IMG/VR virus record: IMGVR_UViG_3300009164_000223
Location: 1 to 31,495 of that record
DNA length: 31,495 bases
DNA from: a virus
Direction: 5' to 3' (one strand)
Below the pieces are notes generated by a model. The model had not been told where the DNA came from, searched no databases, and worked only from the letters and a program-made list of their open reading frames with translations. Shown piece by piece: positions 1,687 to 5,245 of this stretch; positions within the stretch are counted from its first letter, which is position 1; the number at the start of each line of letters is the position of its first letter. Made by a program: the position numbers and the translations under genes.

Positions 1687-1889
1687 TCAATTTCTTCTTT
1701 CAGCGGGTCGTAGATGGCTTGAAATCCTAGACTAACTTCAGTGTTCGACAAAGTAGAACTATCACGCTCAGCAGCCGTTGAAGGCTTGCTTGTATGCTTA
1801 TGTGTCCTTCTCCAAGCCTTGACTAGCTCGATGGCTTCTCGGTCATCAGTTTCAAACTCTGCTCCACAAGAACAGGTTTCACGAATCAT
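1683..1889 (-). CDS. Small CxC-containing protein, function unknown
   Basis: A 68-residue protein if it starts at ATG 1889; an upstream in-frame start at 1934 would lie inside the preceding gene. The N terminus reads MIRETCSCGAEFE, a half zinc-ribbon (CxC) also seen in small actinophage proteins, followed by a helical segment ending in HKH that could supply further metal ligands. The remainder is polar and has no recognisable domain. It overlaps the preceding zinc-ribbon gene by 11 nt and the methyltransferase start by 4 nt, so it sits inside a tightly coupled operon. Function is not known. Confidence 0.65.
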   Translation of the reverse strand: MIRETCSCGAEFETDDREAIELVKAWRRTHKHTSKPSTAAERDSSTLSNTEVSLGFQAIYDPLKEEIE

Positions 1890-2055
1890 TCTTAGCCCAA
1901 CCAGATCCAAGGAATCGGGTCGCACCCCAACCAAACTTTCTTTCCATTACAAGCTCACATAAACCGCATACAGGGGCTTTAGGTTCATCTTGTAGTTCAG
2001 CAACAACTTGATCAGTTACACCACAGTTAGGGCAGATAAAGAGATAAGCAGGCAT
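1879..2055 (-). CDS. FmdB-like zinc-ribbon protein
   Basis: A 58-residue protein. It begins MPAYLFICPNCG, has a second pair CGLC about 24 residues later, and ends in FLGSGWAKND. This matches the layout of the FmdB zinc-ribbon family (short beta start, CxxC, CxxC, then a GSGF/W-x-x-D tail). Family members are presumed small regulatory or nucleic-acid-binding proteins, with no firm biochemical role. The start ATG 2055 lies 14 nt after the tmRNA-like RNA, preceded by a weak purine stretch (AAGAAAG). Its stop overlaps the start of the next gene. Family assignment is by motif pattern only. Confidence 0.7.
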   Translation of the reverse strand: MPAYLFICPNCGVTDQVVAELQDEPKAPVCGLCELVMERKFGWGATRFLGSGWAKNDS

Positions 2056-2069
2056 TAGTTTCTTTCTTG

Positions 2070-2150
2070 TGGAGTTGTAGAGAATCGAACTCTAGTCTTA
2101 CTGCTTCTCCATGAGAGTTTTAGCGCGCAATCGAATACCATTCCAACCCC
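2070..2150 (-). ncRNA. tmRNA-like RNA reduced to the tRNA-like domain (mini-tmRNA)
   Basis: Read on the minus strand. A 7-bp acceptor stem forms between GGGGTTG (2150-2144) and CAACTCC (2077-2071). A 5-bp T arm TAGAG/CTCTA with loop TTCGATT is at 2094-2078, and an A follows the acceptor at 2070. The third acceptor pair is G-U (2148 with 2073), the alanine identity pair of tmRNA. The 5' part carries GGTATTCGA followed by CGCGC, resembling the GG-TTTCGAC-CGCGC start of actinobacterial tmRNA as I recall it. The 3' part GGAGAAGC...GTAAGAC before the T arm also resembles the mycobacterial tmRNA 3' region. No canonical anticodon arm (5-bp stem, 7-nt loop) can be folded. Between the halves is only a small hairpin (2124-2103), with no tag reading frame. 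It starts at the base after the phosphoesterase stop. CCA is not perfectly encoded (ACA). A decayed remnant is the main alternative. Confidence 0.6.
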
Positions 2151-3317
2151 TTACAGTTTCCAAACTGTACCTGTAAAGTCTATGCCCTGCTGAAGCTCGA
2201 AGCATACTAACCCTGGCTGAGAGTCTTCGCCTGCTGTTGTTCTCCACCAGTTAGAGCCATTGTCTAGGGTTGCTGCTTGAACCCAGAAGCGTGAAGTTCC
2301 CCTAGGGGTAGAACCTAACTCAAGAACTCTTAGATGGTGAAAGTGGCCTGATACGCCTATTGTTGCAGCGTGAACCGGTTGCTTACCGAAGGCTTGCTGT
2401 CTCCACCATGTTGGCACTTGATCAGGTCTAGGCGATTGATGTCCATGCCATAAGCCCAGAATATGAAAGCCATCGCCCCAGATATCGTGAGCTAGTGATT
2501 CATCGTGTTGGGCAGGTTCAAAGAACTTTATAGGCAATCCAACTTCATGAGACAACCTTGCAAGAGTGCGGGCAATATGAATACCCCAGTCATCAGTTAC
2601 CTTGCCAACTCGTTGCTTGTTGACCCTGAATTGACAGTGATTGCTTCCAACGCTCAGATAAGTTATCGGGGCATACTTACTGAGTTGCTTGAGAGTCTCC
2701 CAGGCTAATGATGTTGCTAAGTCAACCTGTTGCATAAGACTAAGGTCATTAGATTGAAGTTGATGCATGTCGGCAGCATTACCAAAGTTCTCGATAGTGT
2801 CCCCAACATCGCAGAAAACTATTTGCTCAGGTTTGAGAGCCTTGACCTTCTCGATAAGTTTTACTTGTGTTTGGGCTACTCGGTGAATTAGCGCATCCAC
2901 TCCGCCCCTATGATCCACCTTGCCAACTTGCAGATCACTCCACAAGATAACAAGGGCTTTACCTGTTGCAACCTGCTTAGGGGTTACAGGCTTAGTTTTC
3001 TTAGCTAGAGAATAAAGCAAGGGTAGATTGATATTCGCATTACGCTTGACCCAGCGAATCCTAACTGAAGTCATCCACATTGGCTCTAAAGGAAAAGGTC
3101 TAGCAACCTGCCACCGGCTAATTCTAGGCTCGCCAACAATCTCAATCTCTTCAGGATTGATACCGGCTTCTCTCAAGAAACCTTCAATGTCTGTCGGGTT
3201 ATCCCCTTCAACCGCAGGAAGTACAGCTTCTCCCCCTACACCATCAAATTGAACTGATGGACTCCACCCTTCAGGGTAAACAACTTTAGGGGCTGGCTGG
3301 CTTAGTCCTTCCAACAT
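2151..3317 (-). CDS. Mre11/SbcD-like metallophosphoesterase
   Basis: Calcineurin-like metallophosphoesterase, of the type annotated in actinophages as an Mre11-like double-strand-break exo/endonuclease. The metal and active-site motifs appear in order: SDLQVGK (about 127), CDVGDTIEN (about 169), GSNHCQ (about 224), HGH (about 291) and SGHFHH (about 323). The N-terminal 110 residues have no recognised motif. I chose ATG 3317, with GAGAAG about 8 nt upstream, over a TTG at 3323. The start overlaps the upstream HTH gene. The tmRNA-like RNA begins on the base after its stop. A role in recombination or DNA-end processing fits the other recombination genes, but no SbcC-like partner is seen. Confidence 0.85.
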   Translation of the reverse strand: MLEGLSQPAPKVVYPEGWSPSVQFDGVGGEAVLPAVEGDNPTDIEGFLREAGINPEEIEIVGEPRISRWQVARPFPLEPMWMTSVRIRWVKRNANINLPLLYSLAKKTKPVTPKQVATGKALVILWSDLQVGKVDHRGGVDALIHRVAQTQVKLIEKVKALKPEQIVFCDVGDTIENFGNAADMHQLQSNDLSLMQQVDLATSLAWETLKQLSKYAPITYLSVGSNHCQFRVNKQRVGKVTDDWGIHIARTLARLSHEVGLPIKFFEPAQHDESLAHDIWGDGFHILGLWHGHQSPRPDQVPTWWRQQAFGKQPVHAATIGVSGHFHHLRVLELGSTPRGTSRFWVQAATLDNGSNWWRTTAGEDSQPGLVCFELQQGIDFTGTVWKL

Positions 3318-3526
3318 GAGCAACGCTTCTCTCTATGATGCTTTATCGCAGCATCACTGACTTTAGTTCCCCGCTTATAAAGCTCATTAGATAGCGTTTT
3401 GTAAGGCCATTCAGGAGACATAACAGCAGTCTCGAAAATAGTTTTATCTTTATCAGATAAGTCAGCCTTGATGGTGCGGATTCGGCAGGATGTTTGTCGT
3501 TTAGGTAGTTGCAGATCTTCAAGCAT
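3302..3526 (-). CDS. Small helix-turn-helix-like protein
   Basis: A 74-residue protein ending in KHHREKRCSC. The central region reads as three short helices with a turn (WPYKTLSNELYKRG, then KVSDAAIKHHREK), consistent with a DNA-binding helix-turn-helix. The basic recognition-like helix followed by a CxC tail resembles small actinophage HTH proteins often found beside an Mre11-like gene, as here. ATG 3526 overlaps the preceding stop, and its 3' end overlaps the phosphoesterase start by 16 nt. Target DNA is unknown; it could be regulatory or structural. Confidence 0.6.
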   Translation of the reverse strand: MLEDLQLPKRQTSCRIRTIKADLSDKDKTIFETAVMSPEWPYKTLSNELYKRGTKVSDAAIKHHREKRCSCWKD

Positions 3527-5061: not shown

Positions 5062-5245
5062 CGCTGATCTCTTTCAAGTAAAGAACTTCAAGAGTGTTGC
5101 AGTTCACGAAAACAAGCTTGCCGGTAGCCGCGCAGTTGCGAATAACATTCTGCTCTTTCAGCATTTTGATTAGCCTGGTACGCTCTCGCTCTTCGCCTTG
5201 TTTGCGATAAAACTCGCGTACTTGCTCAGCACTATTTGTCGGCAC
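5054..5245 (-). CDS. Hypothetical protein, possible winged-helix-like
   Basis: A 63-residue protein. The N-terminal half is a charged helix rich in Arg and Glu (EFYRKQGEERERTRLIKML), and the C-terminal half is beta-like (KLVFVNCNTLEVLYL). It starts with GTG 5245 and overlaps both neighbours (14 and 8 nt). Similar small proteins occur in actinophage early regions, but I cannot name a family. Function is unknown. Confidence 0.55.
   Translation of the reverse strand: MPTNSAEQVREFYRKQGEERERTRLIKMLKEQNVIRNCAATGKLVFVNCNTLEVLYLKEISDE

Follow-up and report, generated by a model that had tools for sequence, protein, structure and literature searches.

We confirmed that a 31,495-nt stretch of viral DNA (IMG/VR record IMGVR_UViG_3300009164_000223; the whole stretch is hereafter called the window) carries, at positions 2070-2150 of its minus strand, a selected phage-encoded tmRNA that is reduced to its tRNA-like domain (TLD). 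tmRNA is the bacterial RNA that frees stuck ribosomes, and the gene found here, which we refer to as a mini-tmRNA, measures 81 nt including the discriminator A. An earlier note on this DNA had placed the feature correctly, and the 7-bp acceptor with a G-U third pair, the perfect T arm with TTCGATT and the missing anticodon arm that it described are all seen, the RNA being encoded on the minus strand. Read from 2150 to 2070, its sequence is GGGGTTGGAATGGTATTCGATTGCGCGCTAAAACTCTCATGGAGAAGCAGTAAGACTAGAGTTCGATTCTCTACAACTCCA, laid out as GGGGTTG GAATGGTATTCGA TTGC GC GCT AAAAC TCTC ATG GAGA AGC A GTAA GAC TAGAG TTCGATT CTCTA CAACTCC A; a 3′ CCA is absent from the gene, and CAA follows the discriminator A. 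The 5′ strand of the acceptor stem, GGGGTTG (2144-2150), forms 7 of 7 pairs with its 3′ strand, CAACTCC (2071-2077), the third pair being G3·U70 (positions 2148 and 2073, respectively). It is followed by a D-loop region without a D-stem, GAATGGTATTCGA (2131-2143), in which UUCGA (2131-2135) corresponds to tmRNA nucleotides U16-A20, including the SmpB-contacting U17, C18 and G19. The 5′ strand of P2, the equivalent of tmRNA helix 2, occupies 2122-2130 (TTGC at 2127-2130 and GCT at 2122-2124, with GC between them) and leads into an inner arm at 2106-2121, composed of an AAAAC bulge and the hairpin TCTC-ATG-GAGA, which can also pair in the alternative register CTC-TCATG-GAG. The 3′ strand of P2, AGCAGTAA (2098-2105), a GAC linker (2095-2097), whose A (2096) is the counterpart of E. 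coli A334, and the T arm TAGAG-TTCGATT-CTCTA (2078-2094, with 5 of 5 pairs) complete the molecule. The P2 of the window RNA is somewhat irregular. Only 33 nt separate UUCGA from the GAC linker, and the inner arm stands where the mRNA-like domain and pseudoknots would be; the RNA contains no tag frame, mRNA-like domain or pseudoknots, and, as read from its sequence, neither an anticodon arm nor a D-stem.

Upstream of the RNA, the TAA stop of an Mre11-like exonuclease/metallophosphoesterase gene (2151-3323, minus strand; phrog_284) abuts its 5′ end, and downstream a 58-aa zinc-ribbon ORF (1879-2055, minus strand; its Zn_ribbon_8 match is below the Pfam cut-off) starts 14 nt past it. These neighbors, together with the presence and pairing of both RNA ends, speak against an att site, in which a 3′ part of ssrA would be found beside an integrase. 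The closest named phage by both terminase (55% identity) and exonuclease (52.8%) is the Pontimonas phage phiPsal1, and the host of the window phage is therefore likely to be an actinobacterium.

Comparison with 27 full-length bacterial tmRNAs from sampled genomes shows that these begin with GGGGNYG and a short loop ending in UUCGA, followed by P2, and end with P2′, GGAC, the T arm and the acceptor. The window RNA shares this terminal layout, except that it has AGAC in place of GGAC, and in place of about 300 nt of the full-length molecule it has a small hairpin on a short P2, which supports the earlier proposal that of a tmRNA only the TLD is left, its two ends being connected through a small arm. 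ARAGORN, run as a tRNA finder over the whole window, called neither a tRNA nor a tmRNA. The Rfam tmRNA model RF00023 does align with the window RNA from end to end, a covariance-model match being one of the checks proposed in the earlier note, but the score of 40.7 bits (E 9e-17) is below the gathering cut-off of 47 bits, and a whole-window cmscan omits it, although 8 of 8 other carriers pass the cut-off with 54-70 bits. We rejected the RF00023 score as sole evidence: tRNA-sized stretches in bacterial genomes score up to 48 bits, with E-values of 1e-11 to 1e-18, so that E-values alone mislead, and the case has to rest on architecture and covariation. It is likewise comparative evidence, and not single-sequence folding, that decides the identity of the RNA, folding of the window copy being mildly unusual (z -1.46), with a misfolded T arm. 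A covariance model built here from mini-tmRNAs, R2, gives the window RNA, which is part of its training set, 66.6 bits; on this scale mini-tmRNAs score at least 45 bits, and tRNA genes and 3′ ends of full-length tmRNAs at most 37.

A pattern scan of viral contigs yielded at least 120 contigs with such RNAs, in contrast to 2 obtained with a mirror-image control pattern. Among the matches listed, all scans together gave 119 distinct sequences, 111 of which had full acceptor and T-stem pairing and U70; after exclusion of one that overlaps a tRNA call (L127), 110 distinct RNAs were kept. Pair 5-68 and U70, neither of them demanded by the pattern, are present in all 110 through this selection step, which 111 of the 119 sequences passed. 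Other features that were not demanded are A73, found in 110 of the 110 distinct RNAs among the matches listed, the A corresponding to E. coli A334, found in 108 of them and in 72 of 72 aligned members, and the pairs of P2, which are of many types. In the 72 aligned members, in which the acceptor stem and the T arm both covary, 94.8% of cells are paired, 456 cells are changed on both sides, and the covariation score is 0.678, versus 0.165 after shuffling and 0.07-0.10 after sliding; aligning the sequences to the structure in itself favors pairing, an effect against which the slid and shuffled controls, as well as the syntenic set described below, guard in part. The G3-U70 pair is found in 72 of 72 aligned members, while pair 5-68 varies freely. 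Mini-tmRNAs often lie 2-11 nt from a tRNA gene, as expected, like their location in tRNA arrays, for an RNA that is matured like a tRNA.

A pattern that required one more base in the T stem retrieved, apart from chance matches (L007 and L088-L091), only RNAs whose T arm is longer by one nucleotide (L002-L006). One viral contig, L004, contains two different mini-tmRNAs (1566-1638 and 5112-5183, both on the minus strand), the second of which has a bulged A in the T stem, in common with L002, L005 and L006. ARAGORN tmRNA calls overlapping L109, L160 and L215 were dismissed as spurious, since the 5′ end of each mini-tmRNA itself pairs perfectly.

Relatives were also collected independently of the RNA. 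A search with the exonuclease protein returned 80 viral loci, in 77 of which the region past the stop codon was readable, and 37 of the 77 carry a mini-tmRNA, which abuts or overlaps the exonuclease stop codon in 35 and is found about 510 nt downstream, past an inserted ORF, in 2. In 30 of the 77 (among L011-L077), G1 of the RNA is the last base of the exonuclease TAG stop; a comparable tmRNA overlap with the gene upstream is described for Carsonella smpB only (PMC4131195). Eighteen distinct syntenic copies, found through the neighboring protein and not through the RNA pattern, have 99.0% of cells paired and a covariation score of 0.473, versus 0.161 for shuffles and less than 0.1 for slides, and G3-U70 is present in 18 of 18, while pair 5-68 again varies freely. 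Recurrence at the same site in related phages, with compensatory changes in the stems and an invariant G-U pair, was thus borne out. About half of the exonuclease relatives have no RNA at this site, and it is therefore dispensable there; R2 found none elsewhere in the sequence stretches examined from relatives without it. In one relative of the latter kind, for which the whole record was searched (G026), the RNA is located instead between the prohead protease and capsid genes, as it is in phiPsal1.

Several of these loci deserve separate mention. In L018 and L032, an ORF resembling a GIY-YIG nuclease (judged by eye) is inserted between the exonuclease stop and the mini-tmRNA. In L074, L076 and L077 the T loop reads AGCGTTA, with all stems and U70 intact, and in L059, L067 and L071 the mini-tmRNA site is occupied by another conserved, terminator-like hairpin (GGATCTCCTAGTAGCC...GGAGAT). 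The mini-tmRNA of L066 (2945-3022) is followed 4 nt on by a tRNA-Arg gene, which suggests that the two are processed jointly.

Among cultured phages, R2 detects mini-tmRNAs in phiPsal1 (66 bits), Shaeky (74.5), LuckySocke (74.9), BRock (71.8), Jojan60 (71.3) and pSt2308 (75.5), none of which is annotated as a tmRNA in the corresponding record; those of Shaeky, LuckySocke and BRock are situated inside tRNA arrays. R2 was built from most of the pattern-found sequences, and phiPsal1, Shaeky and the other cultured phages named here are outside its training set. No R2 match was obtained in phiC31, Yasdnil or Theresita, and CcrBL9 (27.8 bits), BUCT628 and PA_L9 were rejected as members because they score below the family. 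Acinetobacter phage BUCT628 (L257) and Pseudomonas phage PA_L9 (L259) contain unannotated tmRNA-like 3′ ends, and Mycobacterium phage Nanosmite (L094) an apparently full-length tmRNA that is unannotated in its record. The mini-tmRNA of phage Alone3 has a degraded D-loop. The exact pattern was absent from 396 genomes of one bacterial phylum, and an R2 search of 296 bacterial genomes, the weaker of the two negatives, as it scored only about 16 candidates per genome, found no mini-tmRNA, so that in what was sampled these RNAs are restricted to viruses. SmpB was found in 0 of 35 carrier or related phage records and in all three bacterial genomes checked; with no SmpB of phage origin, the RNA must use that of the host, if any.

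In most members P2 has about 7 pairs and is followed by an internal loop, in which UAAAR faces A(A/C)N, and by a short CC...GG hairpin whose tip resembles a tetraloop, the family consensus for the inner arm being UAAAR-CC..GG-A; members of a shorter subtype (60-69 nt) have just one hairpin. The same inner arm recurs in phages of Streptomyces, Pontimonas and Stenotrophomonas and in many environmental contigs, which speaks for a phage RNA family of some age and against the view that host ssrA was cut down repeatedly in recent times.

The positions that are kept offer clues as to what the RNA may do. G3-U70 and A73 are alanine identity elements, and charging with alanine seems to matter, because G3-U70 is invariant (72/72 and 18/18) and A73 is found in 110 of 110, with pair 5-68 free to vary. 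The SmpB contact site is kept as well, in the form of UUCGA and of the A334 equivalent (108 of 110 among the matches listed); according to PMC8363625, SmpB grips the TLD via the D-loop and the A334/U17 pocket, contacting U17, C18 and G19, and A334 is part of the pocket for SmpB Trp122. We consider it reasonably probable that the mini-tmRNA is a charged decoy, alanylated by the host and bound by SmpB, that suppresses or diverts host trans-translation; its expression, processing, charging, binding and effect on the cell we infer. The RNA would be made within the exonuclease gene transcript, excised by host tRNA-processing enzymes and supplied with CCA; G3-U70 would direct its charging with alanine, and SmpB and EF-Tu of the host would bind it. 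The resulting Ala-TLD-SmpB would compete with host full-length tmRNA for SmpB, and also for the empty A site wherever a non-stop mRNA has stalled a ribosome, but it could not support tagging there, since it lacks a resume codon, a tag and a stop; the net outcome would be that host trans-translation is suppressed or diverted during infection. The decoy reading, which agrees with the earlier note's inference of a template-less entry at stalled ribosomes that would block trans-translation, is supported by published inhibition: a TLD of the DS6A type, chargeable or not, is reported to inhibit tmRNA strongly in E. coli (PMC4131195 and PMC11915505). Since this inhibition is independent of alanylation, pure titration of SmpB would not explain an invariant G3-U70, and mainly for that reason titration is unlikely to be the whole story; the invariance favors a role at the ribosome itself, and this role might consist in useful rescue and not in inhibition.

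Rescue of this kind is the main rival reading and is possible, if on balance unlikely. The charged mini-tmRNA with SmpB would then replace trans-translation and not block it, accepting the nascent chain, perhaps adding several alanines without an mRNA and freeing ribosomes untagged, with release occurring, for example, by peptidyl-RNA drop-off and hydrolysis, and translation would be kept running despite the degraded mRNAs of an infected cell. The invariant G3-U70 and A73, which imply that charging matters, and the clustering with phage tRNA genes fit such a role, but we know of no termination or recycling route for a TLD-only tmRNA. In vitro, a TLD fragment with SmpB is described as supporting the synthesis of poly-alanine when no mRNA is present (Shimizu and Ueda 2006, as cited in PMC3929946), and mitochondria retain a tag-less tmRNA along with SmpB (PMC11915505 and PMC7050145); against this, the one in vivo experiment reported on a TLD-only tmRNA shows inhibition of tmRNA.

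It is improbable that the tRNA-like fold acts as RNA punctuation, i.e. as an RNase P/Z cleavage signal separating the exonuclease mRNA from downstream messages. The location at or overlapping the upstream stop codon in 35 of 77 loci and in the protease-capsid gap of phiPsal1 and a relative would suit this role, but neither G3-U70 nor UUCGA nor the A334 equivalent would have to be kept for cleavage, and about half of the relatives do without the RNA, several copies of which are inside tRNA arrays. It is highly improbable that the RNA is an odd alanine tRNA or that it acts as a decoy for no partner but alanyl-tRNA synthetase, a decoy for this enzyme or for SmpB having been one of the options in the earlier note: the alanine identity elements G3-U70 and A73 are there, but so are a tmRNA-type D-loop and P2 position, with no anticodon arm or D-stem, no ARAGORN call, and R2 scores of at least 45 bits versus at most 37 for tRNA genes. 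Least credible of all is a relic, be it the remnant of a decayed phage tmRNA, a scar of recombination with ssrA or an att site. In its favor, ssrA is a common integration site (e.g. an attR match), the T loop is altered in three relatives and the D-loop is degraded in Alone3. The simpler origins that had been proposed at the outset (decay or a scar) are, however, contradicted by the covariation, by the positions that never vary and by the repeated occurrence of the RNA. In addition, the two ends of the gene are both there and pair with each other, compensatory changes are found in both the 72-member and the 18-copy sets, the same inner arm occurs in phages of Actinobacteria and in a Stenotrophomonas phage, and 396 genomes of one bacterial phylum contain no match.

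Beyond the charged decoy, a wider and rather doubtful reading is that these RNAs form an old and widespread family of phages, distinguished by a conserved inner arm (P2, an internal loop with UAAAR and a CC-tetraloop-GG hairpin), that reprograms ribosome rescue, and that with host SmpB it may drive template-free addition of alanine to stalled chains, as could be expected if charging is indispensable, as it appears to be. Where G1 lies within the TAG stop, maturation by RNase P would leave the exonuclease mRNA non-stop, and, if this is true, maturation at such UAG overlaps would couple the exonuclease gene to the very rescue step that the RNA controls. The occurrence of such RNAs in over 100 phage contigs suggests that viruses commonly interfere with, or replace, host ribosome rescue, and phage manipulation of this process may have been overlooked because gene finders call nothing at mini-tmRNA genes. 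phiPsal1, Shaeky, BRock, LuckySocke and Jojan60 could serve as laboratory systems for asking why phages attack or replace trans-translation, and the mini-tmRNAs as a whole represent a set of putative natural minimal SmpB ligands.

Comparison with known systems shows that the kind of RNA to which the window copy belongs is already known from mycobacteriophage DS6A, which, according to PMC4131195, carries a TLD-only tmRNA (tmID 11587). In the literature that we found, no other phage is named as having such an RNA, and the 2025 tmRNA database paper repeats this single case. Both the window RNA and, going by its published description, the DS6A RNA are phage genes for little more than a TLD; the window phage, however, is nearest to phiPsal1 among named phages and is not a mycobacteriophage. 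Canonical tmRNAs (ssrA, RF00023, and the full-length ones of phages Kumao, Wildcat and Bxz1) have in common with mini-tmRNAs the G3-U70 acceptor, the UUCGA D-loop, the start of P2, GGAC and the T arm, but are roughly 350-400 nt long, with a tag frame and pseudoknots, whereas mini-tmRNAs measure 60-88 nt and lack both. The tag-less mitochondrial tmRNAs of jakobids, which co-occur with nucleus-encoded SmpB, and the ~65-bp plastid tmRNAs of Mallomonadaceae, which are of nearly the same size as mini-tmRNAs, are organelle genes that underwent independent reduction. The engineered TLD of T. thermophilus (PDB 2CZJ), in which 25 nt from the 5′ end and 34 nt from the 3′ end are connected via UUCG, is an artificial version of the same design and is close to the short natural subtype of 60-69 nt, although it lacks the conserved inner arm. 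Four aspects of these RNAs appear to be new: how many carriers there are, the conservation of the inner arm, the recurrence at two conserved places among the phage genes, and the stop-codon overlap.
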